DNA of 64,000 nucleotides. It comes from Physcomitrium patens (Eukaryota; Streptophyta; Bryopsida; Funariales; Funariaceae). Numbering within the stretch: position 1 is the stretch's first letter; each line of letters opens with the position of its first letter. The stretch covers positions 1,824,636 through 1,888,635 of the forward strand of contig NC_037275.1 in the NCBI RefSeq assembly GCF_000002425.4. The letters run 5' to 3'. The translations under genes were made by a program, and so were the position numbers. The notes beneath the pieces were generated by a model, which saw only the letters and a list, made by a program, of their open reading frames with translations, ran no database searches and was not told where the DNA came from. Shown one piece after another: positions 12,281 to 35,506 of the stretch.

Positions 12281-12980
12281 TTGATTGCCAATAAAGATAA
12301 TTATATTGTATTTCAAAATCTGACGTTTTCAATTGTAATTCAACCAATAAAAGTAATTGTGGAAAATAACAGTAAATCGAGGAGCATTGAGAGCTCAAAA
12401 ATTAGAATAATGGAAAGTAGAGATTATTTTAAAACAAAGTTTAGCGAAACAAGAAATTCAATGGCGTCAAGAAGACCAGCCATTTCGATTGCAGTACAAA
12501 TGGATGCAGTAGGCGATCGTACGACTAATATCGCACCACTATCTACTTTTTGGGGATTTTTGGGTGCGAATCCTGATCAACATTTATCTCAATTTCTTAC
12601 AGCATGTGTAGCTAATAATGACAGAACTGAAGATATTTGGTTGCGATGGCTGCCAACGACCTTAAAAGATATGACGTTTGAATGGTACAACCGCAAATTA
12701 GTGGGTCAATTCCCAAATTGGGAAGCATTGAAGAATACATTTTTATCTCATTTTCGGTCAATTGGTTTTGAAGACCGCCTTCGAGAGAGGTTAATGAACA
12801 CCAAAATAATCCTAGGGGAGGCGGTGGAATCATACTATGGCCGAGTGGCTGATATACTCAATAAGTGGCCGAATCACCAAATGCTAGAGGCATTTATCTT
12901 ATCCATATTAATCAATAGTTTGCACCCACCAGAGTTAAAAATGTTTGTAAAAGAAGCTCAAACCGTTATGATGGTTGCGT
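12281..12980 (+). pseudogene. gag capsid region (element B), interrupted
   Basis: The Retrotrans_gag-type capsid domain packages the element RNA. Landmarks are DIWLRWLPTTLKDMTFEWYN and NWEALKNTFLSHF followed by RLRERLMNTK and ESYYGRVADIL, the standard capsid pattern. Element A's copy is at 18900-19400, minus strand. The frame would run on into 14381, but a 1,396-bp insertion after position 12980 cuts it; the codons to 13039 belong to the insertion. Confidence 0.82.
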
Positions 12981-14376: not shown

Positions 14377-14380
14377 GCGT

Positions 14381-14990
14381 CCCTTAATAGAACCAAGGTT
14401 TGAAAGAAATGCTATTATGATTAATTTTTAACTACTGGAACCACAATGATTCCAGTTCAAGGTAGATATCAAAATCCGACTTGGAACAAATAAGTGGGTA
14501 ATAATCCACGGATGTTAGAAACAGGGGCCAATTCCAATACCAATATTCACGGGCCAGTTAATGTCACCCCATTGCAAGCTATACCACCGAACGTGATAAC
14601 AACATATGCTCCATATTTTTCGTATCAACAACAAGCATTAACTACGGCAAAGATACCAATAATGCCAGTCCTAAAAGATTCTAATGAAACCTTATTATTG
14701 AATTTGACGAAAAAAATGGAAGAAATGGCCGTCAATATGGCCAAAGATAAGGAGAAGATGTAAAAGCCTACCAATACTAAGACTAATGTATGGTGCAGTA
14801 ATTGTAAGGGCCACGACCATTCTATAACAGAATGCCCTTCACCCTCACAAATAATGGGTCAATGTACATTTTAGAGAGGAAAGCACCTAACAGCAAATTG
14901 TTGGAATTGGCAAAGACAACAACAACAATTTAGTAATCAAACCATGATTCCACCAACCCAGTGGGACGTCAATCAAGTACAATCAAAAAA
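14381..14990 (+). pseudogene. gag middle region (element B)
   Basis: Sequence after the insertion matches A's 18525-18920. The clearest open part, 14494-14763, has the run ATKIP-like proline/threonine text and ends LNLTKKMEEMAVNMAKDKEK, a short charged helix shared with element A (KKMDKMAINMAKDKEK). It joins capsid and nucleocapsid. Stops at both ends show decay. Confidence 0.6.
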
Positions 14991-15225
14991 TACGTTTGGA
15001 TGGAATGAAAATCGATTTAATCGACAAAATTGAGCATTCAATAACTTTTAAAGTTCTAATTTTAATCAGAGATCTGCATCGAACCTCCAGAACTATGATA
15101 AGGAGCAGCAGAGGTATCAGCAATTTGCTCCACCAACATCATCAAACCAAATTCCCTCAATATCAACGAAACAACTAAGATCATTTTCTAACCCTACATG
15201 GAACAAGCCTAGTAGGTATATATCG

Positions 15226-15474
15226 ATGGAGGCACCCAATATGCGTGATGGAGGTGCAAGAAGACCACTTCGTTATTTTCGTTGCAGACAAATTGGTCAT
15301 TATGCCAATGAATGTTCCAATCCCAGAGCCAGTGATGATTATGCACCAATTTGTGGGAATTGCAAGCAGTCGGGGCATACGTATCAACAATGTAATGCTC
15401 CGTTCAATTTCAATAATCGGGATCAGCAAATCCAAAGCCAAGGAAAAATTGAGGAGATAAATCGAGGTCCTTAA
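15226..15474 (+). pseudogene. gag zinc knuckles (element B)
   Basis: Two CCHC knuckles are visible. The first, YFRCRQIGHYANEC, has Tyr in place of the first Cys. The second, CGNCKQSGHTYQQC, has perfect C-x2-C-x4-H-x4-C spacing. They bind genomic RNA in the particle. Sequence just before (14991-15180) matches the broken 9918-10140 stretch of A. Confidence 0.78.
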
Positions 15475-16616
15475 GATTCTCTAGTAAATTGGGTGGAATG
15501 TGTTCAAGCCGTTCTTACCGAGAATCAATGAAAGGAAAAAGGACCAATTCAACATTTGGGTAATACCAATGCAAAAGATCAATTTGATTAATTAGAAGAC
15601 CATCCAATCCAGGTCCTATTACTGGCTTCGTACCCTGTATGAGACGTGACTCAGTGGCACAATCCAATGAAGTTCCAATTATGGAGGCTTTGGGTCCATT
15701 TCAAGCAGTTTCGATCTCTACGTAGTTCCAAAAAATATCCTATCCATTAAAAGATCCTCTCGAGGGTAAGAATTCCAAGGAAGCCCCGGCTGTTGTTCCA
15801 ATTCCGAGTCTAGGGTGGAAGAATATTTTACCTCACGAAGTTAAACTCAAACCAATGAAAAGAAAGAGAGCATTGGGAATTATTCTCAATATAGAACCCT
15901 TCGACATTCTGAAGGATTTGGATGCTATTCAGCCTTCAATTACAATGAAGCAACTTTTGGCTATAGCACCAAAATGTCGATCTACATTGAATTCAGCATG
16001 AATATGACAAAGATTCTACACTAAAGAAATTCATGAAGTTAGCTTAAACCTAGATCCGGGAGCACCAACAATCAATGTATCAATCGATGGCATTTTAAGT
16101 CCAGGGGTACAAGTAGATGGTGGCTCCAGTGTGAATTTAATGAACACGTATACAATAGAGGACTTGGATCTAAAGCAATTGCTACCTACGACATTGGTCT
16201 TACAAATGGCAAATCATAGTCGAGTAAAATCAATGAGAATCTTATGAAATATTGCCACTATAATCACGGAATTGACATACAAAATCAATTATCTTATATT
16301 TTGATTACAGAGTTCTACGTTATCGTATCCCATTTTATTTGGCAGACCTTGGCTTTATCAAGCCAAAGCTAAGAATAATTGGGATCGGGGTACTATGACA
16401 ATTAGAAAAGGCCGTGATCAGATTGTTCTACAGATGTATCTGGTATAATATCATGGAGAATCTCAATTGCCAGAATCAGAGTTTACATCGGACAATGAGA
16501 GTCAATTGATTGAGGAAGATGCTGATGCTATAGGTTCACTATAATTTGGGATAGGACAAAATACTTCAACAGCAAAGGCAAGAGTCTACCAATGTAGAAG
16601 TTTCGAAGAATATTTA
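15475..16616 (+). pseudogene. Spacer and aspartic protease (element B)
   Basis: Broken coding sequence. Positions 15560-16005 match A's 150-codon spacer. The protease lies at about 16040-16400: GVQVDGGSSVNLMNT near 16107-16150 and RPWLYQAKAKNN near 16342-16380. Several in-frame stops interrupt it. Confidence 0.65.
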
Positions 16617-16880
16617 TTGCATCAAGAGGATGCGACTAACTTGGATCATGCTATTGCCGAATGGATGAACAATTCCGTAGTCAATAGAGTCAAGATATTG
16701 GAACCAGATTTGGATGGTTCTCATATGTCGAATAATACAAGCTATTCAGAACAAGAAAAGACAATTAAATCAGAGGTTGTTGAAGACCCTGTGTATCAAT
16801 CCATTAACTTGGGCACCAACGAAATGCCACAGCTAATTAAAATATATGTCGATATTATAGGTACAAAATTGTATGCTTAG
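16617..16880 (+). pseudogene. Protease-RT spacer (element B)
   Basis: This 87-codon stretch between protease and reverse transcriptase has no named domain. It ends TEMPQLIKIYVDIIGTKLYA and is followed by coding text for HHKCTFAWSYVDLKGIP across a stop, the start of reverse transcriptase. Confidence 0.45.
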
Positions 16881-16925
16881 AAATAGTTTTTTGTCCATCA
16901 CAAATGTACCTTTGCGTGGTCGTAT

Positions 16926-17279
16926 GTGGATTTGAAAGGAATTCCAGTTGACGTGTGTAAGCACCAGATTATTTTGGAAGAGGATGTTATGCCAGTTCGT
17001 CAAAGACAACACCAGCTTAACCCAAAATATTTCCTTTTAGTGAAAGAGGAATTGGATAAACTTCTCGACATGGATTTTATTTATCCTATTCCGCATAGTG
17101 CATGGGTGTCACCAATCGTGATGGTATCAAAAAAGAATGGAAAAATCCAAATTTGTCAGGATTTTTGGAAACTTAATGCGGCCACCAAGAAAGATTACTT
17201 CTCATTATCTTTTATCAACAGTATAGATAACATGTTGTCATTATCACCAAGTAGTAAAAGAATAGGAGTGGGGCACTAG
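16926..17279 (+). pseudogene. Reverse transcriptase start, cut by deletion (element B)
   Basis: The N-terminal fingers are intact: DLKGIPVDVCKHQIILEE, RQRQHQLNPKYFLLVKEEL, SAWVSPIVMVSKKNGKIQ and KDYFSLSF. After about position 17225 the sequence jumps to DNA that in element A lies beyond integrase (A's 5376 downward). The last codons (SLSPSSKRIGVGH) are therefore out of context. Palm, thumb, RNase H and integrase are all missing. Confidence 0.85.
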
Positions 17280-17395
17280 TTAAAGTCATTCTGTGGTGTT
17301 GTTTTGGATTGGCTGGAGTGCCATTTTCTTGTATTTCTTGTATTTTTGAGAATAGTAGTTCCAAATAAAAGTTAACAGTGAAGAGCTAGTCACAA

Positions 17396-17584
17396 GTGTT
17401 GATTGAAGATATTCCAGAATGGATGAGTCAACAGCAACAACAATTGGAACTTCGGGATGTCCAAATCTTGAAATTAGAAGCTCAAGTCCATGTACTAGGT
17501 GAGTATAATGAAGATCTTTCAAATCAGTTGAGGAAAGAGTCGATGGACTGGAGAAAAAAGAAGAAGATTTGCAATTGGAACTAG
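17396..17584 (+). pseudogene. Coiled-coil fragment of the post-integrase region (element B)
   Basis: It matches 3953-3723 of element A, sharing IEDVPEWMS / IEDIPEWMS. The 62-codon stretch is rich in Q, L, E and K with heptad-like spacing (LELRDVQILKLEAQVHVLGE). The sequence between it and 17360 carries a second deletion relative to A. Confidence 0.5.
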
Positions 17585-17733
17585 ATTTGGTCGAACCTAC
17601 ATTCAATAATGCAGCAAATGATTTATTAGATGGGCCAAAGGAATTAGTAACTTTGTGGAGATTTATTAAGTATTTTTTAGATAGGAATCAATTGAGTGTT
17701 TGTGAGGATGCTACATAGATAGGAGTGGAGCTA

Positions 17734-18524
17734 TGTAGAATAGATATTAATTCATTTTTGAAAGATATTAATAAAATATATTAATAGTCCATATAATAGG
17801 AAATTCACGACGATGGATGAGTGATTTAATTCTTAAAAGTGATTAATTATAGAATTATGATTAGAATCTAGAGAATCAGGGGAAAGTATATAGAAGTTGT
17901 AGAAGATAATTAAGGTGCCAGACTGTGATAGTCATGGACCGAGGACCATCGTTGTGATAGTGTGAGCCGAGATAAGCTTGGTGCTACCTCTTTTCTTTTA
18001 TTTGTTATTTTCTTTGAATAAGAGGATTGAGAGTTTTTGAATATTGTGAAGTGAATTATGGAATGGAAATGTGATTGGTATTATTCGAGAAGAAGAAAGA
18101 TTGAATGCTGAAATCTGATTGTAGTTCAGTAGAGAAAATGAGTCTGTGTTTATGTGAAACACTGTAATATGAATGGCAGTTCTGTGTGAAGAATTGCAGT
18201 GATTGGAATGAAGGTAATTGTGTGTTGAAAGTTGTGAGGGCTCAGTATTACAGTTGGAGATTATGAAGGTGAATATATTAGTGGAAATAGCAATTATTGG
18301 TATGACTGAATTACTGTAAAGAAGAGACCGATAAGGTGAAGGAAGAGATTATAGTTTCCTTGTGTGTTCAGATATTAGAAATAGAGACGATACATTCAGG
18401 AAGTAATTGATTATGTGACCCTAACGTGAACGCTTAAGCAACTAGTCATTCTCCGTGTTCGAATCCTCCTATACGGGTTTATTTCCATTAGATTAATTTG
18501 GAATAAGTAAAATGAACAATCACA
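17734..18524 (+). repeat. 3' LTR of element B
   Basis: It runs 791 bp from TGTAGAATAG to GAACAATCACA and matches both parts of the 5' LTR. A polypurine-like stretch, GATAGGAGTGGAGCTA, precedes it directly. Confidence 0.92.
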
Positions 18525-19893
18525 TACTGCCCCAAACATTGGTCCTAGTATTGGTAGGCTTTTGTCTCTTCTCCTTATCCTTAGCCATATTGATGGCCAT
18601 TTTGTCCATTTTCTTCTTCAAGTTCAACAACAAGGCTTCATTGGAATCTTTTGGGGCTAGTATTATTGGTAACTCTATTACAGTTAATGCCTCTTGTTGA
18701 TACGAAAAATAGAGAGCATACGTTGTTGTCACGTTCAATGGTATAGCTTGCAATGGAGTGATATTAATTGGCCCCTGAATATTAGCACTAGAATTGGCCA
18801 TTGTTTCTAACCTCCATAGATAACTACCTATTGATCCGTTCCAAGTCGGATTTTGATAACTGCCTTGAACTGGAATCATCATAGCTCCCGCAATTAAAAA
18901 CTAATCATAATGGCATTCCTCCCAAACCTTGGCTCTATTAAGGGATGCAGACACTATAACGGGTTGAGCTTCCTTCACAAAAAATTTTAACTCTTGTGGT
19001 TACAAACCATTGATTAATATGGATAAGATAAATACCTCTGATATTTGGTGATTTGGCCACTTACTGAGTATATCAGGCACCTGACCATAATATGATTCCA
19101 TCGCCTTTCCTAGAATCATTTTGCTGTTCATTAACCTCTCTCAAAGATGATTCTCAAAATCTATTAGCCAAAAATGGATTAAAAATGTATTCTTCAATGC
19201 TTCTCAATTTGAAAATTGATCCATTGGTTGGCAGTTGTACCATTCAAATGCTGTATCTTTTAAGGTTGCTAATAACCATTGTAACCAAATATCTTCGGTT
19301 CTTCCATTATTGCCTACACATGCTATCAGAAACTAAGACAAATGTTGGTCGGGATCCGTATCCAAAAAGCCCCTAAAAGTAGGTAATGGAGCCACACTCG
19401 TTGTGCGATCGCTCACAACACCTATTTGTACTGCTATTCAAATTACTGGACCACCCATTGCCATTGAAGAGGACAATGTGCTCCTTAATCTCTTATTAAA
19501 ATTACCATTGCCTTTCCCAATTATCTTTTTCAGACTTTCTAACCTCCTTAATTTACTATTATTATTCCTAAATAAGTTTATTAGTTGAATTGGAGGTAAA
19601 AATGATGGATTTTGAAGTACGCTAAATTGGCCCTTATTAGCAAGCAATTTATGCCATTCTACAGAATCAATTTTTATAGACTCAGTAGTTTCCACTATTG
19701 AGAAGGTACCGAACAGAGTACCCAATTCTTCTGTGTTTCCTCCACTTACAATTAACGAGCTTAAGAGATACGTTGGATTGTTGACAAAATTTCTTGCGAG
19801 TGCTCCTAGCAATTTTTTTAATGGTATATATGTCTGAAATATTAGAGATTGATCAGCTTCTGGATATGCTTGGATATGCAGACACGCATGCAA
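18525..19893 (-). pseudogene. gag (element A), N-terminal and capsid parts
   Basis: Minus-strand gag of element A. The open stretch 19893-19438 (151 codons) is the N-terminal part. The capsid domain at about 19400-18900 reads EDIWLQWLLATLKD, TAFEWYN and NWEALKNTFL but has stops. The stretch 18882-18525 gives PVQGSYQNPTWN to NMAKDKEKRQKP, the proline-rich linker shared with B. The frame stops at the edge of element B and gag continues at 10279. Confidence 0.8.
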
Positions 19894-20129
19894 CCATGAC
19901 TTAATCCAACTTTATTGATGCTTCTTTTTTAACTTGCGTTCTTCCTCATTTAGCAACGATTCTCTTGCTTGCACTTTCTCTTGTCTTTCTTTCAACTGGT
20001 GTGTTTTTTTTATTGCAATGTTCTCATTCTTAATAAACATAATCTTTCATTATATACTACTGAATTTGCTTCCTATTTTCCATCTACTCATCTGGCAGTT
20101 AATTCCTAACACTCAATGCTATTGTCAAT

Positions 20130-20149
20130 TCCCGGCAGCGGTGCCAAAA
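20130..20149 (-). other. Primer-binding site of element A
   Basis: On the minus strand TTTTGGCACCGCTGCCGGGA directly follows the 5' LTR. It differs from element B's primer site at a few positions and fits the same tRNA type. Confidence 0.78.
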
Positions 20150-20476
20150 TGTAATTGTCATTTTACTTATTCTACAAATTCCTTTCAAAATAAACTTGTA
20201 TAGGGGAATTCGAACATAGGAAAAGACTAAGCTCATGAGCTGTAATTGTTAGGGTCACACGATTAATTATATTCCGAACCACTAAAATACCAAGAAACAC
20301 TATAATGCTTTCTCCCAATAACAATACTTCTTCATCAACTGATAACAATAGTGTGTAACTTTGCACTCTTAAAAGACTGCTCAAAACTCATAAATTCCAT
20401 CCAACACCAAGAATAACAAACTTCACTCCAACCAATCTGGATTCACAAAATTTCTTTAATCACAGACTTCCTCTAT
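20150..20476 (-). repeat. 5' LTR of element A, part next to the primer site
   Basis: It matches 2652-2970 and then stops abruptly in the middle of the LTR where the DNA transposon begins. The last four bases, CTAT, are repeated at 35062-35065 on the far side of the transposon. Confidence 0.92.
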
Positions 20477-20500
20477 AACCCAATATTCATTATTTTGAGA
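20477..20500 (+). repeat. Left terminal inverted repeat of the DNA transposon
   Basis: It starts AACCCAATATTCATTATT and ends TTGAGA. It pairs with 35038-35061 at 23 of 24 positions; the difference is the fourth base (C here, A there). Confidence 0.92.
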
Positions 20501-21044
20501 AAATTTCAGTGAATTGAGAGTGTTGAGGAGGTTTAAAAACCAAAAGCATGAAGTAGAGGTCCTTCTGGAACATTGAAAATTGATGGAGTACAATGAATTC
20601 AAATTAAAATGTAGAGAATTTTATTTCAAATAATCACCAAATATACATGTCGTGAGTGTAGAACTTACTAAATAATTTGCAAACTTAGAAAACCTCATCT
20701 ACAACCTCAGAAATAATCAACTATCAGCCATGCAATGTACACTTCAGAGTTGTAATGGCTTATCGCAGTTGTACTCAGCGATTACACCCCATTGAAATTT
20801 ATTGAAATTTGTATCAGTAGTCAAGTTGCTGTGCTCTACAAGATTTGAGCACAATAGCATTGCACAATGAATTGGAGTAGTTATTTCTACAACAATGTCA
20901 TGGCTCACATTTCCTTTTCAAATATTACAATGTAGAAAGGGCTTTATGTCTTGTTGTGCTGATGTAGACTTTGCTGCATTACGAAGTATCTCATGGTTGT
21001 CATCTCAAAGATAATCCGATACTTTCGGCAATACTTTGTCATAA
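20501..21044. other. Left subterminal region of the DNA transposon
   Basis: No gene and no copy of the 23-bp palindrome are seen here. Base composition is ordinary. Transposase often binds subterminal sequence, but I see no repeated short motif. Confidence 0.4.
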
Positions 21045-21966
21045 TTAGCATCTCCATATACTTTTTTTTTGCATCAATCTTACAATAGTTAATAGGGACA
21101 TGGTCGGAGCCTCAACTTCCGTTGCACGTAGTGTAGAGGGCCTGTCCAGGTCAAACAACTGCACTTTCTTTTCCAAAGGACTATCCACCACCCCATCGTC
21201 AACAAGCTTCTTAGAGAAGTCCATAGTCGAATTGATAGAAGGAGCAGAGCAAAGGAAGTTTCCTATGTTGAGAAGAACGTTCTGGCCGTAGTCCATGATG
21301 GAATCTGCAGACACTTCGCATTGCAATCGACGGACCTGTTTCAATCCATCAAAAATTTCAGATCAATACAATTTGAAACGAAAAATCCGATTACCTATCC
21401 ATACAAACACTTGTACTTGTCATCCACAACATTCTCGATCATAGTGGACGACAGTCCTTTGAAGCACATCAAGAACTGGAGGATTGGATACCTGCTAAGA
21501 CAAACGGCCCACGAAGGAGCCAATCATGCCTTTCACTAACTACAAATGACCGCGACGATACCAAAATGCACCATACAATTACATGCCATAGACAAAGAAG
21601 CGCACCGTGGAAGACACACATACCAGAGGAGCCTAGAACACGAGATAATGAAACACACCTTTTGCTTTGAAGAGGCGAATGATTCGGATCGACTGTCAGA
21701 GATCACGGTCCGCGACTCAGGCAACGACTTGGCAGAAACAACGAATGCCACCGAGGTGGGATAAAACAGCGGAGAAGGAGAAGCAGAAGGAGCTGACAAA
21801 GTTGTAAGGATTTCTTCACCTGTGATTCAATGTAGAAGCAAATGAGCCCTTCAAGTATTTGAAACTCATCGACTGAGTAAAAATATACAAAATTCATATC
21901 AAAAGTATTGAGCTCCCTGGTTGGTTCCATTAGGAACTCCGTATCAAAAATAATTTGCCTATTCAA
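21045..21966 (-). pseudogene. Broken multi-exon coding sequence at the transposon's left end
   Basis: Several minus-strand stretches look like exons. 21966-21820 reads MNRQIIFDTEFLMEPTRELN and ends at ESQ before a GTGAAG donor. 21491-21395 reads YPILQFLMCFKGLSSTMIEN after a CTTAGCAG acceptor and ends in TAG before GTAATC. 21335-21045 starts VRRLQCEVSADSIMDYGQN after a GAAACAG acceptor and ends KKSIWRC. The TAG at 21397-21395 would be CAG if one C had become T, giving phase-0 joining to the last exon. I do not recognise the family. It may be a third gene of the transposon or the end of a captured gene. Confidence 0.4.
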
Positions 21967-23188
21967 CTATACTCTAGACGCACTAGCCAATAACACAAAA
22001 CACCTCAAGTCGAGCTAAAAAAAATTGACAGCGAGTGATTATGTGTCAAAACCTGCATCTGGATCCGGAAAGGCTAATTGATCACTGCCAACCGCTATCT
22101 CTAGAGTATCGTCCTCTAGATTTGTGGGGCGCTCCATGGAATGTGGTTCTACTGACACTGCCTCCACTCTGGAAACTTCACCGATTGAAAAATTGATTGA
22201 CGGAGACGTCGGACTGTGTTGTTGAGATGTAGTAGGAGCCACTTCGCCCGAGACATTGAGAGCACTTGAATGCGGAAGATTGGCGGCTTCCGCATGTCCA
22301 CTACTGGATCCGCTCATGACAGATCGAGATGGCGCATTCCCAAGCATCAGCGACGAAGGCTGGGAAGGAGGGGCGAAAAGGGCGTCTGGCAGTTGGGGAT
22401 TAAGCCTCACGAATGCAGAGAGGAGAAGATTTGTCTGATGCTGCTGCTGCAGTATCATCCAGGATGTGTCTTCGTGCATCCTCCGAGACTCCTCGAACAA
22501 TCTCATGCTCTCGACACGATTACGATCTTGTCGAGCGTTGATTTCTGCAATCTGCTGCTCGTGCCTCCGCTGGCTGTCTGCCAGAATCGCCGAAATGGAC
22601 TCCATGACGGTAGCCACAGAGTCCATGTCCTTCCTCTTCCTCCTCCGCCCCCCAGAAGATGACGCACCAGGAGTTCCACTGGAAGGTGGATTATCAGATG
22701 CTTGTGCTGACTGCGGAATAACCCGAGATCGCCGCTCAGGTAGTGTGGCGTTGGACTGAATGGGATCCAACTCTTGAAGGTCGTCGTCGTCGATTTTGAC
22801 CTTCTCGTCGACTTCCTTCTCCTCGTCCGGGTCATAGTCGTGGTCGTCCCCTTTGTTGTCATCTTCATCAGATATAACGAGGACGTCGTCAACTGGTGTT
22901 GTCCTCCGCTTCTTTGATGGAGAAGACTCGAAGCGGTCACTGAGCCGTGCTCCAACTCTTGACCGTGTTGGCGTGGTGGCCATATACTTGTATATCGCAC
23001 TCACCTTGTATCCACTGGGAAGGAAGTCATCTCTGTCGAGAGTGAGTGCTTTCCTAGAGATCTCTTCCCACCGATCCGACTCTCCGGTCCCTCCGACCGC
23101 AAAGACATCCACGGAACTCATCTGCATGAAATGGCACGCGGACAGCTTAGTGGATATGAAAAAAAGAAATGAATGTGATTGAGAAGCA

Positions 23189-23459
23189 AATCAGATCGAC
23201 TCGAGCTGATTGAGAAGCAAATCAGCTCGACTCGAGCTAATTGAAAAGTAAATCAGCTCGACTCGAGCTGATTTAAAAGTAAATCAGCTCGATTAGAGCT
23301 GATTCAGAAGAAAATCAGCTTGACTCCAGCTGATTCAGAAGCAAATCAACTCGACTCGAGCTCATTGAGAAGAAAATCAGCTCGACTCAAGCTGATTGAA
23401 AAGCAAATCAGATCCACTCGAGCTGATTGAGAAGCAAATCAGCTCGACTCGAGCTAATT
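23189..23459. repeat. Palindrome array, nine units, 31-bp period (intron 4)
   Basis: The 23-bp core is AATCAGCTCGA, one base, then TCGAGCTGATT. Cores start at 23189, 23220, 23251, 23282, 23313, 23344, 23375, 23406 and 23437, exactly 31 bp apart, with an 8-base spacer like GAGAAGCA. Some cores have single-arm changes (CAGATCGA, CTTGACTC). The array lies wholly within intron 4 of the ParB-like gene. Confidence 0.95.
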
Positions 23460-24895
23460 GAGTACCTACTATTGCCGCGCAAGTGATCTTGCCTCCCCCC
23501 CATAGTGAAAAAATGGACCCCCCTGGACGGCAGAACTTCCGCACTAGCCAGAGATAGAACTCCATTCGTAGTTCGGTGTTGTATACTCGAAACTCCAACT
23601 CGTTGTAGCCGTGAGGCTTGGTAAACATTGGTGTGTCGGGAGAAAGAAATTCCGATCGGATCTCGACACGGTCATGGGCGTCTACATCTTACAAGAAAGT
23701 GAGGATCACCTTCCTTGGCGCTCGTCCAACTGAGGAATCTCCAAGACGTTCGAACTTTGCAAGAATGTAGTCTGCAAAGTCGATGTGCAGGCCTTTGAAG
23801 GCCCCGTGTGAGTTGATGAAGTCCATTGTCTGCAGTCTATGGCTCTCGCAGCCGGATATGAAGAGCCACCTCTTTCAATCTGCGAAGTATGGACTTCTAT
23901 TCTTTTCCAGAGCAGCAAGAACTTGATGGAAATAAGAGATGGTGTTTTGTTCTATAAGATCATCCTCCATCCCCGAAAGCTCTCGGAGGTCGATGATTCC
24001 AAGCTCGATATCACGAGCGCTCTCGTTATTCCATGCGTTGTCTTTCCACTTACTGAAGGTGTTCGTCCTCATATCATAAGTCTTGTAATAGGCACACGCG
24101 TATGGCACCTAGAACCCGTTCTTATGATTCAAGAAAACTTTCAAGAACTCTGCTGCGGCCGGAGAAATCTGCGCGCAGGTCTTGTTCTTGGACTTCAGTT
24201 GCTTCGCTTCAATAAAGTAGGATTCTCCAGGCCGCTCAAGGAGGACATTTATTGACGCACTCGTGATATTACGAGCCGTCTTGAACGCCTTCCAATTCTC
24301 ATGAATGAGGTCGCCCTCTGCGTTGATTAATCCCAAGCTTGGGTCTATGTTGTCGAGCTCTTTCTTCACTAGCTGCTTCCTCTTCCTCCTCTCCACCCGG
24401 TCCTTCGTGCTATAGCAGCTCTCAAGCACAGACGAGATTGATTTAATCGTCACCTTTGGATAGGGGAACTTTCGCTTCTCCCCAGATTGGTTAAGAGGGT
24501 ATTTCGTGAGCCTCTCCAGATCATTCAGGCTCAAGTTGCCGAGCCACTTGAAGTACTCGCGGCTGAGCATGCAACTCTCCTGCTTCCAGTTCTCTTTCTC
24601 GTTGAACTTCGCAAAGGTGTCGGGGTTGTAGAGCTCCCCGTGGGCAGCACTGGAAATAACCTCACTACAGAGGTTGTAGATGGGCTCCGGGGCAGTGATG
24701 ATCTTTAGCTCATTGACGAGCTTAAGCTTCTCCTCTGCACCCTTCGTGCGAGAAATTCTCAATGACTTGTTGACGTAAATCAATGAGAACCTCAAAGTCA
24801 TTGCTTTCTCGAATGCCTACGAGCAAATAGAAGAAGTTAAATATTTATTTTCTGAAACATAGCAAAGAATTCAATTCAAAAGAGGGAGAATAGCA

Positions 24896-25089
24896 AATCA
24901 GATCGAGTCGAGCTGATATCCTCTGAACAAGCCTTCATAATATCAGACTATTAAGTCATTCGAGAAATGTCGTCACATCAAAAATAATTCGATTGTGATG
25001 GAAAGTACAACCGTTCAGATCAGATCGAGTCGATCTGATCCCAAGTCAAGATATTCACATAATACAAATCAGATCGACTCGATCTGATT
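24896..25089. repeat. Three separate palindromes in intron 3
   Basis: Cores lie at 24896-24918 (mixed arms), 25018-25040 and 25067-25089. The last two use CAGATCGA in the left arm and TCGATCTG in the right, so both arms changed together. All lie in intron 3 (25096-24817); the third starts 7 bases inside its donor. Confidence 0.9.
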
Positions 25090-26676
25090 CTCTTACCTTG
25101 AATCCCTTCGTTCTGCATTGAATGTCCGAAGCTCTTCTCCCAGCTGTCGTGCCGGCGGCTGTGATCTGGAAAGGATTCTCTGGGCATCCCATACTCACCC
25201 AAACCGATCGTGCTCCGAGGATGTTGGTCGCCCATGACGGCTGCATCATCTGAAAGTGATTGATCTGATTGTAGTATGCTGATATGAACCTCAGTATCTC
25301 CGGAACGCTCGACCATACAATAAAGCAACTCCAGACGCGGAAGTCGCTCTTCACATCGTCATCAACCACGTTACTCTCGTCGGTTATGACCCTGCTGGCT
25401 GCAACACTGTGCTGCCCGTTGATGACAAAAAACTCTCCGTCTTTGATCTCCTCCCACGTTGTCGGCTTTGAGGTTCTATTCGTGGACATTATGCATAACG
25501 TTTGCCGGGCCTTTTGATAGGGCAGGTTCATGAGATACACCACCATTGCATCAACGAGCTTGTCCTCTTTCGATCGAATATTGAACTCCGTAGGTGCATC
25601 AATGAGTTTATCTATGGAGATGCCCTTCTTTGTATTGACCCCGAAGATGTATGCATCTTCGCACTCTGACCAGAACTTCTTGTACACTGCGGTGATGTGC
25701 TTGAAGTCGGGCTTACTCTGGGGTTCATACGATGACGGAACATCGGTCATCGCATCAGTAAAGGTCGGATGTTGAACCTCCGACACCTGGGAGCTGCCCG
25801 AAGCCGCTCGGCGATCTCCAGAAGGTGCAATGGGGCTACTTCTTGTCGATCCTCGCCCTGCAGAGCTGGACCGTAGCTTCGCTTTTTCCCGGCTGCTTGA
25901 AGGCGCAGGAGCTACTGTATCGACCGAAGCTTGACTTCCACCTACTGCTCGAACTTCTCTCCGGACAGACCGCGGGGCAGCTAATAGTTTCTGCGCCTCT
26001 AGTTTACCTTTGATGACGGAGAAATCTTGCAGAAGTGAATTTATCTTGGTGCAGAGCCGCTTGCCAAAAGCTGAGGACCCGTCCTTCTCGTTGTAGTCCC
26101 CCCTGTCGATTTTTGCCTCGAGTTGCTTCACCTCTCCTCTGTATTCAGTGGGCTCGAGGCTTTCGAGGAAGGGAGACATTATGAAGGGGATCCGCTTCGA
26201 GGGTATGAGAACTGTGAAGTGATATTCATCTGTGGGATCTATCAAAACTTCGGTAGTTACGCACTTCACCAGGATCATGTCGCCGTCTAAGTACTCGACA
26301 TCTTTTACCCGCTCTGCTGTCGTGAGCTTCAAGAATGCTTGACTTTTCTTGAATTTGATCAAAAACTGGATGTCGTGCGTGAATGGAATCATAGCTAGAC
26401 TCCATGCCTCGAGCTCCTCTGGGTCAAAAAACTTCCACGAGGTTCCATAAATCAACCGCGGGTGGGTCTCGTCATCGTCATCGGCACGCCGGTCGAGCTT
26501 ATCCAAGTACATGGACAATGATGCCTTGATGTCCTCCATCTGCAACAGACGTAGAAGCAAACATGTCAGATTATGTCCCGTCGACTTAATGACACAGTTA
26601 CTCCAATGAACCTTTTAAACTCTTCTTACTATATCAAATGTATTATTGGACACAAGAATAATAATCTTATATATGA

Positions 26677-26893
26677 AATCAGATCGACTCGAGCTGATTT
26701 ATGGTCCTCGTATTGCGTAGTGTGTTCTATGTAGGCCAATGTTAGTATTTTGGAAAACAACAATTACGAATACGAATTTATGATTTTAGTTAGGTTTTCC
26801 AATTGTATGATTCATCTTAATGTGTTTTTAATGCCGAAACATGGAAATCTACTATATATTCTTCACGTCAAATCAGATCGACTCGATCTGATT
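26677..26893. repeat. Two separate palindromes in intron 2
   Basis: Cores at 26677-26699 (CAGATCGACTCGAGCTG, mixed arms) and 26871-26893 (both arms in the GATCGA form). They stand apart from the 44-bp array in the same intron. Confidence 0.9.
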
Positions 26894-27225
26894 CTTTGGT
26901 GTTATGCGTAGTAATTTTGTAAAGGATTCTGTACCGGAGGAAAGAGTGAACTCGAGGTACATGGAGTTTATGCGTCAATGATGACGCTAGAATTATAAGT
27001 TTTCTACATTAGATTTAATTAAAATGGTGTCATTTTTTATACTAATATTATGGTTCATTTTATATTCCTATGTGAATGTAGCAATGGATATGCATTCAGT
27101 AATTTTTAAGAGAAGATAACTTAATTTGTTTGGATTATGACTAATTATTCTGGCCTAAATAATATTTTGGTGCGTAAACTAAATCAGAATATTTGAAGGA
27201 GAATGTAGCTTCATGCGATTGAACG

Positions 27226-27675
27226 AATCAGCTCGAATGGAGCTGATCATATTCGAAGACTGAATTCCTCCTTTTACGCGCTCATTGAAATGAAGCTCGT
27301 GGATCAGTTCGATTCGAGCTGATAGTATGTCGAAGCTATCGTAAGAATCAGCTCGAATCGAGTTGATGACATGTCGGGGCTATCGCAAGATATAGTTAGA
27401 GTTTAGCTAATGGTAGGTCGAACGATTGCAATATTCAGAGTTCATGCAGCTGATGGCTGGTAAGAGAGATTGCATGAATCAGCTCGAGTCGAGCTGATGG
27501 CAGGTAAAGGAGATTATATGAATCAGCTCGAGTCGAGCTGATTGCAGGTAAAGGAGATTGCATGAATCAGCTCGAGTTGAGCTGATGGCAAGTCAGGGAG
27601 ATTGCATGAATCAGCTCGAGTCGAGCTGATGGCAGGTCAGGGCGATCGAACGAATCAGCCCGAGTCGAGCTGATC
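27226..27675. repeat. Palindrome array, 44-bp period (intron 2)
   Basis: Five cores start at 27477, 27521, 27565, 27609 and 27653, exactly 44 bp apart, with a spacer like GGCAGGTAAAGGAGATTGCATG. Three looser copies precede them at 27226, 27301 and 27346. The spacer is unrelated to those in the 31-bp and 69-bp arrays. All are within intron 2 of the ParB-like gene. Confidence 0.95.
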
Positions 27676-28138
27676 TTCGTCCACGTCAGAGTTTCTATTA
27701 CCATGTGTATGGTAATAAGAAAATCTTGAAGTTGCTCGGCTCGAATGGAATGACACTGATTTTATAGAGAATTACCTGTGGGAACTGGATCTGCGAGATA
27801 CTGATGACGTAAGGACGCAACTGTGATTCCTCACGCGATGTACGCCTGGCCGCGGACGTCCTCCTGTTCTGCCCTATTCGTTATCGTACGAATACAAAAA
27901 TCGTGCACCGTGACACTACAGATCCAAGACGACACCAGGCAGTAAAGGAGATCAATTTCACAACCAATAAATGAAATGCAACGTCAAACACAAATGTGAT
28001 TGAAAACGAAGAGGAAGAGACCCAAGAATTTGACACCGTAGACAAATACAAGTCGGCACTTACAGGAACGTAGGGAGCGTCACGCACAGGGGAATCAAAA
28101 CAGCTCTCTGTGGCGTCAAAAGCTCCTGCCCTCATCAC

Positions 28139-30379
28139 CTGGAATTGACAATGCAATAAAATAGCTGGAACAGCAAAGGAGAAGTGAGGAACAGCAAACA
28201 AGAAGTGAGGAACAGCAAAGCAGAGGAGAGAAGCGAGGGTCACGACAACGTGACGAAGCACAGAGAAAATGCGCCAGGAGCGATGTGCGCAACAAAAAAG
28301 AGAAAGAGGAGAAATTTGTGGGCGAAAATGTTGTTTAACCCCCACCCTGAGCATATGCGTTCACGTGCCCCGGCCGTGTTCCCTTGCGCGATTTCGGCGG
28401 AAACTCGTCGGGAGCTTCGACGTCGTTTTCACGGGAACTCATCGGGAACTGCTGGGGAACAGGATGGGAAATGTTGGAGAGAAACGACGTTCTTTTCTAT
28501 AAAATCTCACTTTCAAATCATTCCTATAATGTGTGTACAGAAAGTGTATAATGACTGTTTTCTGACATTTCACAACAAAATTCAAATGATTGAAAACAAA
28601 ACATGCCTTTAAATAAAACCAATTCTTTACACTAGCAGGTCGAACTAATACAATCAGTGGATTGCATTTGGTTGTATATGTAAAGTTTTTTAAAAAGGAT
28701 AATTTTAATTTACATGATTATTTTAAATTTCCCAACCTTTTTCATCTACTCCAATTTCTTAATCAAAAAACCATTCATGTCATTGCAAATATTACCTTTT
28801 CTTCCATTTCATTCTCAAGACTTGAATCAATGTGAATAAAAAAATACTAATTAATTACTCAAGTATCACATTCAATACATTCATTCATTTTGAACGTCTA
28901 ATGAATAGTTTACTTTTAGTACATGAATAAAATAAGGAATTTTCAAGTTCCCAAATCAAATGTGACTAATGTGACTAATGTGACTAACCCCACGACAACG
29001 GATTACTTATACTACTCACATTAACCTACAAACTTCAAAATTCCATAATATATTCATATCATGTTTATAAATTATTCTTTATTATTTTCAATTATCCTTT
29101 CTTTTTATAAATTAATCTCAAGTCGAGGATAACTTTTCCATCTATAATAAAAATTTTAATTAAAAATATAAGATCAATCAAAAAATCAATTATAGATATA
29201 AGATCAGTATTAAATTAAGACTATGAAAAGACTCAATTTAACGAATGTTGATATTATTGACATGCGCAATAATTTATACAAGATATGCATAATACAAGGA
29301 CTATTAATTAATATGTTTTATTTTAGTTTTTCTTTTACCACATAATCATATAAATATAGTCAATACTATGCATTTAAGATGATTACATATCGACACATAA
29401 AATATCTGAATCATATTTACTTTTAGAGGTATGCACACATTTGCAATGAAGGATTAAACAAATAAGTAATTCACTTGTCCTTCTTTCATATAATCATTTT
29501 ATCACTTATCAAAGAATAAAATGTCATAGCAAGATAATTGATATATGAAGTAGCATACAAAATTGAACTTGAAATATGAACATTTTAGAAATCCGCATCC
29601 CACATCCCGATTGATGTCCTGTCAGCATCAATTCTCCATGGAGTCCTGCCCTACAGCCCCATACCCTCGACACCCAAGTATCGAACCGTGCTTGGATCCT
29701 TGGCGTTGCCCCTATCTATTGCGATGGATGGTTCAGATCTACTGTGGAGGATCGACGGTGGATAACGTCGTGCCCAGGGTAGGTGGGCTGCGTTGACTGC
29801 ATTCCCGCAAAGTCAGTTCTGCCGATGTCAATCCTGTGTTTTGTATTCCTCTTTGCTCGCACACTAGCTACGTTCTTCGATTTGGCGGCTTAGTCGACCT
29901 CCAGTGTCCAAGTGGTATGCCCTTCGAATGTCCCTTCATTTGTCTACTTACAATTCATAACGCACGAGCGCTAGAATTAATTTTGCTCTCATTCTCTGTT
30001 CTTGCAATTTCCAATTTTTAGGTGAGCTTCCATGTCTGAATTGAAGCGGGTTCCGATGTTGCCCATTGTGTTGGTTTTCTTCTTATGTTTTGTATGTCTT
30101 CATGTCCAGCCGTTTGGGCTGTTGCGGTCATCTCCCAGCAAGAGTAATGTATGGATTAGTCTTCTCTTTGTGCTCTCGTTTATTACATTTTCGGCGAGTG
30201 AGGTCTTGCAATGACCTAATGATGCGGAGGGGCATTTTTTTTCAATATAGTACTATTCATCCAGAATTCGGTACAATCTTGTCCTGCTACAGTAACACGT
30301 ACCCATACAATTCCACAATAGTGCAGATGACTCGCTTTATAACTGTGTCTCTCTGATAATTTATAATATGTGCTATGGA
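28139..30379. other. Intergenic region between the two transposon genes, palindrome-free part
   Basis: The stretch lies between the divergent genes. 28140-28500 is GC-richer and may hold a promoter and 5' exon of the ParB-like gene; exon 1 is preceded by an AATTCCAG acceptor-like site. 28510-29560 is AT-rich with nothing recognisable. 29563-30230 is a GC-richer island with short open frames. No palindromes occur here. Confidence 0.45.
30032..30214 (+). CDS. Possible 60-residue membrane peptide
   Basis: A short ATG frame within the GC-richer island has two hydrophobic stretches (LPIVLVFFLCFVCLHV and VWISLLFVLSFITF). Nothing else supports it and I do not recognise it. Chance is a real possibility. 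Confidence 0.15.
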   Translation: MSELKRVPMLPIVLVFFLCFVCLHVQPFGLLRSSPSKSNVWISLLFVLSFITFSASEVLQ

Positions 30380-31691
30380 AATCAGCTCGACTCGAGCTGA
30401 TTTTCTGAAAGGTCCAATACGTCCTCGTTGTTCAAAACTATTGTCAAGAATCAATTGGAGTAGAGCTGATTTTATGAAAGGTCCACTGCGTCATTGTTAT
30501 TGAATACAATCACCTAAAATCAGCTCGAGTCGAGCTGATTCTCTGAGACGTCCAGTAAGTCTTCATTCAAAGGTATTAATGTCAACAATCAGCTCGAGTC
30601 GAGCTGATTCTCTGAGAGGTGTATTACGTCGTCGATATTGAAAACAAACGTTCAGAATCAGATCGAGTCGAGCTGATTCTATGAGAGGTCCAGAATTTTT
30701 GATTGGTCCAATACGTCTTTGTTATTGAAAACTGTTGTCTAGAATGAGCTCGAGTCGAGCTGATTCTCTGAGACGTCGAGTGCGTCTTCATTTAATAGTA
30801 TTAAGGTCAACAATCAGCTCGAGTCAAGCTGATTCTTTGAGAGGTAATTTACGTCCTCGGTACTAAAAATAATCGTTCAGAATCAGATCGAGCCGAGCTG
30901 ATTCTTTAAGAGGTCCATATTTTCTGAAAGGTCCCATGCATCCTTGTTATTAAATTTTTTTGTATAGAATGAGCTCAAGTTGAGATGATTCTATGAATGG
31001 TCCAGTTCGTCATTTTTATTATTTTCAAAAATCTAAAATCAGCTCGAGTCGAGCTGATTCTCTGAGACGTCTATAATGTCTTCATTCAAAAGTATTAATG
31101 TCAACAATCAGCTCGAGTCGAGCTGATTGTCTAAGAGGTGTATTACGTCGTCGATACTGAAAACAAACGTTTAGAATCAGATCGAGTCGAGTTGATTCTC
31201 TAAGAGGTCCAGAACATCCTCGTTAAAGAAAACTAATAGCTAGAATCAGCTTCATTCGAGCTGATTCAATGACAGGTCCAATTCGTCCTCGTTATTGAAG
31301 ACCAGTATCCAGAATCAAGTCGAATCGAGCTGATTCTGTGTCAGGTCCAGTTCGTCCTCCTTTAAATAACTGACAATCTGAATCAGCTCAAGTCGAGCTG
31401 ATTTTCTGAGTGCTCTATTATGCCCTCGTATTGGAGAACCAATGTCTATAATCAACTTCAGTTGAGCTGGTTCAATTAGACGTCCGGTACGTCCTTGTGA
31501 GTGAATTCTAACATCCAACATCCATTATCAGCTCGACTCGAGCTGATGTACGTGTCACGTATTCTTATCAGTGCGGAGATGTGCGCTGCCATTCGGAAAT
31601 TGGCATTCACTGAAATGTGGTTCATCGTTTTGCTTTGTACAATTTTTTCTCATCCATACATGTCCGCTAATCAGATCGACTCGATCTGATA
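30380..31691. repeat. Palindrome array, 69-bp period, upstream of the transposase gene
   Basis: About 18 cores start at 30380, 30449, 30518, 30587, 30656, 30742, 30812, 30881, 30968, 31037, 31106, 31175, 31244, 31313, 31381, 31450, about 31528 and 31669. Most steps are 69 bp; two steps of 86-87 bp carry an extra short piece. The spacer contains GAGAGGTCCA, TACGTC and CTCGTTATTGAAAAC. Higher-order pattern: the run 30518-30656 and the run 31037-31175 have the same order of spacer variants, as if three-unit blocks were copied. The last core, with both arms in the GATCGA form, is 78 bp before the transposase frame. Confidence 0.95.
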
Positions 31692-31746
31692 AGTATGAAT
31701 ACTGCCTCTTGTCTCTAGATGTTGGCGTAAGGTTTCTTTCATCGTT

Positions 31747-34626
31747 TTGATGAAGTGGTTGTTTTTATCCAGAGGACTCGTAAACGCTTCGGAATATAAA
31801 GTGTACATGGCTCATTCATCAGGGGATGATTTTGAGGACGCTGAATCCATCAATCCTGTAGTTCCCGAGTGCGAAGGACTTCCTCGGCGTCTGTGGATTA
31901 CGAAGTGTGTGACCCTCTATAATGCACATGGAAAATTGGTAGGCGAGGGTACATGCCATAGTGTTAATTCTGATCTTATGCTTGGCGCTAATGGTCCTCT
32001 TGGTGACACTCAGGTCGCAGTCCACATTTGCAAAACTCATTCCCAAGATGACATCCCCCAAGATCTTCTGTACGCACTTGTGGCGTGGCTTACAAAGCTA
32101 GTCCATTGCCATGGTGCTAGTCTCCACGACCACGAGGCTAAGGATAACTTCAATCAATTGCAAGCAGCTCGGGCAAACTCGGCGCTCTCAAAGTCCAAAA
32201 GGCCATATATGAATGGTATCCGAAATCCCTCTCAAGAGTCACCTCTAAAGTACAAAAAACTCCTCAGCGAAGAGTCTATCAACTTGGTGTCAAGTAAAGT
32301 GTGCTGTATGAGGAATTGCGTGTAGCCTTTTCCAAGAGAGAAGATTAAATCATTCCGCGAGCGAATGTATAATGGATCTACATTCCAGTTCAGAGCCCAT
32401 ATGAAGTTAGATGTGCATAGGGCGGTTCACAGAGATGCAAGCGGGCGGAAGATGGTGACAGTGGAGGGGTTCACCGTGTGCTTGCGTGCATGGATGCATA
32501 TTTCTGGGGTATCAGAAGCAACATTCTACCGCTACCAAGCATATGTAAAAGCTAATCGGGAGGCGAGGAACCATGGCAACACTGGATTACCGAAGCCAAG
32601 GAAGCACACTAAACAAGCGACAGCTACGTTGAAGTGTATCCTCGAGAAGGAGGCAGATCACATGCCACATCGTACTCGCAGTACAAAATCTGGGGAGAAG
32701 ATGGTTTCGATGATTCTCCCAGCTACCTTTCAATGGAAAGATCAAATTCCAAAAATCAACAAAGTTAATACTGCTTTTGGATTGACGGAGGTCTCTTCTT
32801 CAAACTTGAGCAAGATCAGAGCATCTAGGTTTCCAAAATTCGATGTCAAAAGACCCGGAGATAATTTTGCACGATGTGGTACCTGCGACAAGTACAAAGA
32901 GCTAAGGAAGGGTGCCATTGGAGGATCTGAACAGGCTATGAAGTGGACAAGGAAGTTGGAGAAACATCTTAGTATTGCTCGTGCTCATAGGGAGTACTAT
33001 TATGCTAAGCGATACTACTCGCAAACTTATCCCGATGAGTGCATGACAATCATGCATGACAAGATGGATCATGCCAAAACTGCATCTCCGGTATTTTCAC
33101 ATAAGAACAAAGAATTGGATGCTTTGGTGAAGCTACCTGTATCTGTGACAGGCATGATTGCTCATGGACACGGTGACGTGCGTTATGCTCATTATGGATT
33201 GGATAACTTTCCCCATGATTCAAATTATACTATTGGATCGATGACAAAGTTGTTGCGTGATTTGGAGGAACCTCCAAAATCATCTTCCCAAGAATTATTT
33301 TTGGGCTCTAGATCGACAGCTCTATTTCGTAGCATTCTCAAGGGTGCAGAGATGTGCAAAACATCACTAGATCCACAACCTGAGAGATTAGTAGGAGCAA
33401 CACCGTTGCCACCCATTTTGAATGTGCAAATGGATAATGCCACAGGGGAGAACAAAAATAGATATATTTTTGCTTTTTGGTCCCTACTTGTGGCAAAGCG
33501 GATCTTTCGCAAAGTGTATGTAAATTTCATGATAGTAGGACATACACATGACGACATCGACGCCTTATTTGGAAAATGGAGCATGCTTCTGAAGAAAGAG
33601 AACTTCCCTACTATCCCTGCACTTATGAAGTCGTTCATGGACGTGGAATCTATTCCCACTATCCCTCATCTTATCGAAGAGGTGCCGGATTTTAAAAATT
33701 TTATACTTGGATCTATTTTAGATAAAAGTGAAGTTCTTGTAGGTCACACAAAACCACAACAAGTCAAATTTTACTTGGATGCAACAGGGTGTCCAAAAAT
33801 GAAATACAAATTGTTTTGTACGGATGTAGAGTGGCTAGGAGAGGAAGGAGCACGCATTAAAATTTGGAAAGAGGATGCACAGGGATGTAGTTTGTGGCCT
33901 CGTGGTGAGCCATCGCCTGTTCCACAATGTACAATGAGAGGTGTGGAGGATATTGAGAAAGGAATATCAGGGTTCGTGAAATATTGGGAGAATTTGTGCA
34001 ATGCTGATGTCACTGGAGAGTATTGAAGACGGTATGAGCATTTGGTGGTGTATTGGCATAACGTGAAGGATGCATTGCATGAACCAATCATTCCTTATAA
34101 TATTCTGAGAGAAGGTCTTTGGCCAATTATCCGTGTGAGAGAAAATCTTGCAGATCAATTATCAGATGATGGCGAGGATCATAAGGAATTTGGAGAAGAT
34201 GATCCATATGTTGGTCCTCTGAGAGGTCGCCAACAACCATCTTTTAGAGTAGGTCGAGATGTTCGAGAAGGATATTTTGTTGCAATTCGACCTGCAGAAG
34301 GTGAAATACAACCAGTGTGGATAGCTAGGGCTTTGTCGAACCCAGATTGTAATCCTGAGAAACCAAACTGCATTCTCATTCAATATTTTCATCCGACCTT
34401 AAGAAGTGTGGATGTACAACAGTTCTATACAGGTTGGGATAGCGAGAGAGGTTTGCATTGAAAGATCGAAGAGAATGAACCTCCTGTTTCGAAAGAAACG
34501 AATGCTCTTATGACAGCGTGGTCACCACGAATCAGAAAGGACACAAGTGAATGAGTGATCAAAATTCCGGCTCCACAAATTGAAATAATCAAGCAGAGTC
34601 TTGCATCGTATATTAAAAATGTATGA
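31747..34626 (+). pseudogene. Transposase-like protein, DUF7869-like, with premature stops
   Basis: A single frame runs about 960 codons without a frameshift, broken by TAG at 32323 and TGA at 34024, 34459 and 34552. N-terminal part (to 32322): CVTLYNAHGKLVGEGTC, LGDTQVAVHI, like an accessory domain of plant En/Spm-type proteins. Next NCV-stop-PFPREKIKSFRERMY, a helix-turn-helix-like segment (ISGVSEATFYRYQAYVKA), and FARCGTCDKYKEL. The RNase H-like core has acids in TIMHDKMDHAK (33058, 33067), NVQMDNATGENKN (33433) and VGHTHDDIDALFGKW (33550-33559), matching the DUF7869 group. The C-terminus (GYFVAIRPAEGEIQPVWIAR) is a BAH-like tail. Start could be 31747 or 31807. It would cut and join the element at its TIRs. 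Confidence 0.75.
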
Positions 34627-35037
34627 ATGAAATATACAAATTTTTCATTGTGATTTGAATATTCATATTTTGGTAACATAGTTTTTAAAATTTTATAGTA
34701 TTGTGACAAAGGTAGTAGAACTCGTAGTGTATAATAAGTGGTTTTAGTTTGATTTAGTTTTATAGATAACTATTGTAGATATTCCTTAACTATAGTTTTA
34801 TATGTACACAAAAATTACTTGTATAAAGTTATATCAAAATATTTGATTAAGTTAGAACATTGTTATTTTCAATCACATCTGTATTTGACACCTTACAAAT
34901 CAATAAAAACTCTCATTTTAAAGGAAATTACTTATCACAAGTACTGAATTGCTACCTCATTGACCTTATTTGACTATACATATAATCCAATTTTTGTTAC
35001 TTCTATTTGATTGTTTTATTTTGAGAGACACCAAACC
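34627..35037. other. Right subterminal region of the DNA transposon
   Basis: AT-rich, without genes or palindromes. It probably holds the 3' end of the transposase transcript. Confidence 0.4.
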
Positions 35038-35061
35038 TCTCAAAATAATGAATATTGTGTT
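35038..35061 (-). repeat. Right terminal inverted repeat of the DNA transposon
   Basis: It starts TCTCAAAATAATGAATAT and ends TGTGTT on the plus strand, the reverse complement of 20477-20500 with one mismatch. CTAT (35062-35065) follows as the target duplication. Confidence 0.92.
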
Positions 35062-35065
35062 CTAT

Positions 35066-35506
35066 CAAAACACACATACAACTCTCAATAAACAACAATC
35101 ATAATCTTCCATCCATAATCAATCTTCCAATAACTTCTCATATGATTCAATCATATAATACTCCAATTACATAATCAATAACTCATAAATCAATCTCTGA
35201 TTTATTCCACAGACTCTTTTCTCAATATTCAAAAACTATCCATTACTCTTCAATAACAAAGAAAACAAAGAAACAAAGAGGTAGCATCAAGCTTAATCCC
35301 AACTCATGACTATCACAGTCTGGCACCCCAACAAACTTCTACAACTTCTATATAATTTCTATTGATTTTTAGATCCTAACTGTAATCTTGTAATTAACCG
35401 CTTTTAATAACTAAATCAACCATCTGTCCTCCTAAACTGACTATTCTATAGAATATTAATCTATTTTAGCAATATCTTATAAAAATGAACTAATATGTAT
35501 TCTACA
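35066..35506 (-). repeat. 5' LTR of element A, outer part
   Basis: It matches 2975-3418 and ends TATTCTACA. Together with 20150-20476 it rebuilds a 768-bp LTR. It marks the outer end of element A. Confidence 0.92.

Follow-up and report, generated by a model that had tools for sequence, protein, structure and literature searches.

A DNA transposon of the moss Physcomitrium patens carries 40 copies of one short palindrome in its non-coding DNA, and comparison of element copies and relatives suggests that these are probably binding sites of a dimeric protein that the element itself encodes and that acts on the element's own genes or chromatin. The transposon lies within a 64,000-nucleotide stretch of contig NC_037275.1 (assembly GCF_000002425.4, positions 1,824,636 to 1,888,635 of the forward strand), hereafter the window, and measures 14.6 kb as delimited by alignment with the copies C1, C5 and C6. 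Coordinates of the features discussed below are given in Table 1.

Results

One palindrome in three arrays of different period

The core, AATCAGCTCGA-N-TCGAGCTGATT, is one palindrome of 19-23 bp with an odd centre. It is matched 36 times at no more than three mismatches between 23189 and 31691, and not once in 100 shuffles, and 40 times over the whole element when up to five mismatches are allowed. A first-pass annotation of this DNA had reported about 35-40 cores in three arrays with periods of 31, 44 and 69 bp, each with its own spacer, and the counts, the periods and the differences among the three spacer sets were all recovered. Nine cores follow the 31-bp period, the 44-bp period (27302-27675) is interrupted by a single 131-bp gap, and the 69-bp period (30380-31472) includes two 87-bp steps and one 68-bp step, which make this array a 225-bp higher-order repeat. 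However, the arrays account for only part of the core set, because eight further cores (at 24896, 25018, 25067, 26677, 26871, 27226, 31526 and 31669) fall outside any regular step.

Substitutions in the window cores are mostly one-sided; at the fifth position from the centre, for example, ten are one-sided and four affect both sides. Among the 36 closer matches, 24 have C and 10 have A at core position 7, 30 have C or G as the centre base, and seven have a one-sided A-G mismatch at positions 7 and 17. Symmetry at more than 11 bases from the centre did not rise above re-pairing controls (smallest p 0.059), and a hairpin symmetry reaching beyond the core was rejected as not significant. In these symmetry analyses, the window set of 40 includes a weak match at 21998 and omits a weak core at 31450, and a second set of 17 sites, from the related contigs L040 and L041 described below, includes one weak L040 match and omits a weak one at L041 1433.

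Cores lie outside the coding intervals and away from the element ends

Coding intervals were set from the gene model P0001, open reading frames (ORFs) and splice signals, and cover 6619 of 14584 bp. None of the 40 cores, which group into nine clusters, overlaps them: three are in the intron that separates exons A and B of an accessory gene on the minus strand, nine in its next intron, and the remaining 28 between the two divergent genes, the last core ending 55 bp short of the transposase-like ORF at 31747. The four copies compared share a common layout with 40-45 cores each and differ in array length, the 31-bp array holding nine cores in the window copy, 12 in C6, ten in C1 and nine in C5; two extra cores are present in the left part of C1, C5 and C6. 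The first core stands 1.16 kb from the left end (C1, C5, C6) and the last about 3.4 kb from the right end (all four copies), and in the copies compared the outermost 1.1 kb on the left and 3.3 kb on the right are free of cores.

Cores vary less than the spacers between them

Within arrays, unit-to-unit identity is higher in cores than in spacers for the 31-bp (0.898 and 0.701), 44-bp (0.903 and 0.531) and 69-bp (0.906 and 0.609) periods, with column permutation p values of 0.015, 5e-5 and 5e-5, respectively. These values are based on all 9 cores of the first cluster, 7 of the 8 in the second and 11 of the 17 in the third, with end units that include sequence past the array. The same holds between copies, where the first-pass annotation had proposed to compare the spacers. 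In an alignment of 19 rows, one for each of 19 copies, spanning the last 11 cores and their surroundings, the mean pairwise difference was 0.0288 in cores, 0.0442 in spacers, 0.0306 in coding sequence and 0.0616 in the leader (cores against spacers, one-sided p 0.004 by a column permutation that ignores kinship and gene conversion). Locus L031, which begins inside the array and forms the latter half of copy C27, was omitted. C-to-T or G-to-A change at CpG was also less frequent in cores, at 0.025 over 34 sides, against 0.047 over 48 sides in spacers, both as raw values.

Fully located cores are private to the element

The pattern TCAGMTCGANTCGAKCTGA occurs at 372 sites in 470 Mb, the first 50 of which were located. 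Four copies hold 18-23 such sites each, so the total fits about 20 copies. For one variant all 64 sites were located, and all 64 fall at copies of the element, 45 of them with an element end on either side, 13 no more than 25 kb from a single end and six no more than 16 kb from a match to the transposase or the accessory gene. Cores scattered outside the transposon, for which the first-pass annotation had proposed to look, were thus absent from this fully located set.

Relatives keep the palindrome or carry others

L040 and L041 (CADCWO010000243.1 and CADCWO010000269.1) are filed as an uncultured Synechococcales cyanobacterium (AVDCRST_MAG81) and hold intron-bearing relatives of the moss genes (exon A 29-30%, exon B 40-41% and phosphatase 44% identical); such eukaryote-like genes in a cyanobacterial bin probably mean that the genome record is contaminated. 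The palindrome TCAGCTCGA-N-TCGAGCTGA occurs there at eight and nine sites, respectively (12 of the 17 exact, one weak), in the same two introns as judged by match boundaries, upstream and between the genes, with no regular arrays. The flanks of these cores are mostly unrelated, the exception being one intron-2 site with like flanks in both contigs. This persistence in another genome amid unrelated flanks supports the view, put forward in the first-pass annotation, that something has kept the core. Some palindromes stretch to about 29-31 bases, with outer bases specific to each site (L040 3007-3037 and 3125-3153; L041 1373-1401 and 4386-4416).

Relatives within P. patens carry other palindromes. 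L047 (C21; exon B 40% identical) and L048 (C13; exon B 33-45%, exon A 30%) hold three and eight sites, respectively, of TTAACTCGA-N-TCGAGTTAA at no more than two mismatches, those of L047 in intron 2 and downstream, and those of L048 in both introns 1 and 2 as well as on the upstream and downstream sides. Exact TTARCTCGANTCGAGYTAA occurs ten times in the genome (five in C13, three in C21 and two in C17); the C13 and C21 relatives account for eight of the ten, and the C17 pair has the same 109-bp spacing. L035 (C3), the transposase of which is 34-40% identical, has 15 copies of TATCGGCGG-N-CCGCCGATA, or 16 counting its flank, partly periodic at 49 and 72 bp, and all four exact TRTCGGCGGNCCGCCGAYA sites of the genome lie within this element. 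Read without a gene model, the L035 palindromes appear to be intronic or between divergent genes, several of them inside open frames. No accessory exon was recognised in L035 by tblastn, an ORF at 7405-7929 bearing a similar GQH motif by eye, and the ends of this relative were sought and not found. Finally, L034 and L038 (C19, 46-47%) hold worn forms of the first core.

In L036, L037, L039, L044, L045, L046 and L049, loci that were partly read, no site of this kind was seen; imperfect palindromes of other sorts exceed shuffles in L036, L046 and L049, within telomere-like or tandem repeats. Tandem repeats near distant DUF7869 or accessory fragments were seen at L046 196-466 and 1508-1626 and at L049 309-640, as GTCGA-rich units, a 26-bp and a 121-bp repeat.

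The core is also spelled in translated homologues from other genomes, in 24 of 262 proteins (26 matches; none in a reversed control), with 120 of 330 matches listed in one homologue search; two of the 24 proteins are from the L040 and L041 contigs. Two of the 26 matches lie close to the N-terminus, and almost all the rest are in tails that follow exon A or B. Half-sites across the relatives are TCAGMTCGA, TTAACTCGA and TATCGGCGG, and the translated tails suggest a further one, TTAGCTCGA.

The element, its copies and its genes

The inverted ends of the four compared copies read AACCCAATATTC.. / ..GAATATTGTGTT, with 4-bp target-site duplications (TSDs) of CTAT, TTAG, ATAA and ATTT. Three of the four measure 14.6-15.7 kb, and the C5 copy is 24.0 kb long with an insertion. 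A transposase search returned 44 matches: 21 rows at 92% identity or more represent 19 close copies, including that of the window, and the rest are pieces of close copies or relatives at 26-48% identity. A 20th close copy, on C15 at about 6.31-6.33 Mb, shows an accessory exon and a single end and is without a transposase match, which is present at the other 19 of 20. The right end was located at 16 of the 20 loci, and the end sequence at no more than one mismatch has 34 matches, all at element copies. No short derivatives with these ends were seen at this threshold, the closest pair of ends being 8.3 kb apart (C19); a test of transposase binding on short derivatives was dropped because none below that length was seen. 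The four bases past the right end are NTAG at 6 of 16 loci, a possible insertion preference.

The transposase-like frame of the C11 copy is open for 975 amino acids with no stop. The accessory ORF at 25055-26614 is 100% identical to the P. patens protein A0A2K1IHY2, and the junction of exons A and B matches the gene model of that protein (P0001). The window copy lacks about 1.1 kb that is found in C1, C5 and C6, including nearly all of a phosphatase-like ORF (PF03031, E 1.5e-16 in C1); the gap falls between 21437 and 21473. This ORF, of the NLI-interacting-factor-like (FCP1-type) phosphatases, is present in C1 and C6 at element position 1243-2043 approximately, and has relatives in L040, L047 and L048.

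Searches with the accessory proteins gave no Pfam match to DUF1985 or DUF287 at E 0.05 in 33 + 53 homologues, no Pfam match to ParB or Srx in the 33 members, and no PDB match; a PHROG search of the same 33 at E 0.05 returned two nameless PHROGs only. A ParB-like partition protein was rejected, as the likeness of the INGQHS motif was by eye and recall and there was no ParB Pfam match. A DNA-methyltransferase was likewise rejected (N6_N4_Mtase in 1 of 53 members, E 0.029). Three scans found no relatives in viral contigs, and a viral or prokaryotic origin was rejected, the accessory protein being P. patens A0A2K1IHY2 with no relative in the viral contigs scanned.

Outside the element, old sequence resembling a long terminal repeat retrotransposon flanks it, by eye, at 12000-20400 and beyond 35100, and an inverted repeat pair lies at 17874-17936 and 35305-35367.

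Table 1. Features of the transposon copy in the window (positions are those of the window).
Feature	Coordinates	Strand	Remarks
DNA transposon copy	20477..35061		inverted ends AACCCAATATTCATTATTTTGAGA.. / ..CTCAAAATAATGAATATTGTGTT; TSD CTAT at 20473-20476 and 35062-35065
Transposase-like frame	31747..34461	+	two in-frame stops in window copy; DUF7869 (PF25273, E 1.2e-44) in 32326-34026
Accessory gene, exon A	25098..26539	-	INGQHS motif by eye; no convincing Pfam, PHROG or PDB match
Accessory gene, exon B	23463..24816	-	in-frame stops in window copy; open in five full-length copies
Accessory gene, further coding part	22039..23139	-	coiled-coil-like stretch (by eye)
31-bp array, nine cores	23189..23459		within intron of minus-strand gene
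Three cores	24896..25089		intron separating exon A from exon B
Two single cores	26677..26893		upstream of minus-strand gene
Single core 27226 and 44-bp array of seven cores	27226..27675		upstream of minus-strand gene
69-bp array of 16 cores (225-bp higher-order repeat), with cores 31526 and 31669	30380..31691

Discussion

A proposed protein acting on its own element

The first-pass annotation had read the arrays as protein-binding sites. This reading is supported overall by the results above, and binding by a protein is what the sequence suggests. The two 9-base halves lie about one helical turn apart, which would suit a dimer, and because substitutions are mostly one-sided and often non-pairing, the palindrome appears to be read as bases and not as a hairpin. 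The best candidate for the protein is the accessory gene, since it travels with the sites in L040, L041, L047 and L048. In the mechanism that we propose, a sequence-specific homodimer encoded by the transposon, most likely the product of this minus-strand gene, would bind the palindrome and occupy many intron and promoter sites in every core-bearing copy. Binding would allow the genes of the element to stay open to transcription, most probably by counteracting silencing by the host in a VANC-like manner or by activating them directly. With sites of its own in each subfamily, the protein would serve its own kin, and tandem duplication of single sites would yield arrays of differing period and a higher site density.

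Several observations weigh against this proposal. No DNA-binding domain was recognised in any of the element proteins scanned. The L040 and L041 contigs hold no transposase and the C3 element no recognised accessory exon, so that the pairing of protein and site cannot be told from them. The first-pass annotation had regarded relatives lacking the core as contrary evidence, and here the outcome is divided: of 12 distant P. patens loci, five carry a repeated palindrome with an odd centre, be it the core, a worn version of it or another sequence, and the other seven showed none, all 12 having been read in part and many being decayed. The core variants of the C19 relatives resemble the outcome of CpG decay, and CHG decay could partly explain the change from TCAGCTCGA to TTAACTCGA, though the CpGs there are mostly kept. 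The likeness of units within arrays may also stem partly from gene conversion. Finally, each of the first two introns of the window copy has a core that begins 6-7 bases past the splice donor, which would also suit a role in RNA.

Alternative explanations

Sites bound by the transposase, either for assembly of a transposition complex or for repression of its own promoter, would have a model in the subterminal sites of TnpA or of the Ac transposase. The largest array does lie directly upstream of the transposase frame, and nearly all close copies carry a transposase match. However, the cores are not subterminal, the element ends are free of them, and the L040 and L041 contigs retain the core in the introns of the accessory gene; this internal, intron-filling layout makes transposase binding less likely, and we consider it unlikely.

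RNA hairpins near splice donors or in leaders, steering splicing or export, would account for the palindromes just behind the donors of two introns and for those in homologues from other genomes. Nevertheless, the dominant one-sided substitutions are often A-G, unpaired on either strand, 28 of the 40 cores lie between the two divergent genes, and the outer symmetry does not exceed that of the re-pairing controls, so that a hairpin function seems distinctly improbable. Capture by the transposon of sites for a host transcription factor would fit a core common to the genomes of different hosts. Such sites would be expected elsewhere, yet those fully located are all in element copies, and different palindromes are present in relatives within the same host; on both grounds this explanation is very unlikely. 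Passive tandem duplication without function, with which variable array length agrees, is hardly credible given isolated cores whose flanks are unrelated, the recurrence of the core in a second genome, cores that vary less than spacers, and none in coding sequence.

Implications

If the palindromes serve the element's own protein, it is possible, and we advance it tentatively, that they represent a second, independent invention of sequence-specific anti-silencing by a transposon, here in mosses, in which a dimeric factor encoded by a DUF7869 transposon loads onto the non-coding palindromes of its kin and holds these copies open, and protein and site are re-specified together as subfamilies split. 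How transposons escape silencing is an open question and, to our knowledge, VANC in Arabidopsis is the sole well-studied case of private, motif-guided anti-silencing. Were our suggestion true, the protein would represent a new sequence-specific DNA-binding family, and stages of motif change could be compared across the half-sites TCAGCTCGA, TTAACTCGA, TATCGGCGG and TTAGCTCGA. Changed sites in relatives inside one genome would allow a direct test of how a selfish protein and its sites evolve together, and the genome of P. patens is easy to edit. No published account of a moss palindrome system was recognised at the level of titles and abstracts, among mostly best-ranked results and with most subscription journals outside coverage.

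Comparison with known systems

Sola1 transposons have 4-bp TSDs. They are tabulated for Physcomitrella in one source (PMC9033089), and share with the present element the description of an inverted-end P. patens transposon, a likeness by description alone. The En/Spm (CACTA) elements offer a functional parallel in that an element-encoded protein has many short sites in its own element, as we propose for the moss. TnpA of En/Spm counters promoter methylation. In contrast to Spm, which has subterminal sites, CACTA ends and 3-bp TSDs, the moss element has ends of the form AACCC...GTGTT, 4-bp TSDs in four copies, and internal sites.

The parallel with VANC and the VANDAL transposons of Arabidopsis extends further. 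According to Hosaka et al. (2017; PMC5735166), VANC21 binds the motif YAGTATTAY across the non-coding parts of VANDAL21, within introns, between genes and at the termini. VANC6 recognises different motifs, and the targets expand by tandem repetition to an extent that differs from copy to copy; binding of both proteins to their motifs is backed there by chromatin immunoprecipitation and electrophoretic mobility shift assays. Sasaki et al. (2023; PMC10398659) is a further source on anti-silencing in this system. The moss element shares with VANDAL a family-specific motif present in many copies in introns and intergenic DNA (with none of the 40 moss cores in coding sequence), tandem repeats differing in copy number between copies, motifs that differ between related elements, and further genes beside the transposase. 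It differs in that its site is a 19-23 bp palindrome and the VANC motif a one-way sequence of 8-9 bases, that its transposase carries DUF7869 and is not VANA, the MULE transposase, and that the accessory proteins scanned have no DUF1985 or DUF287. We would not file the moss system as a member of VANC/VANDAL, its proteins being unrelated so far as tested, but by analogy it appears to be like VANC in both its layout and its evolution.

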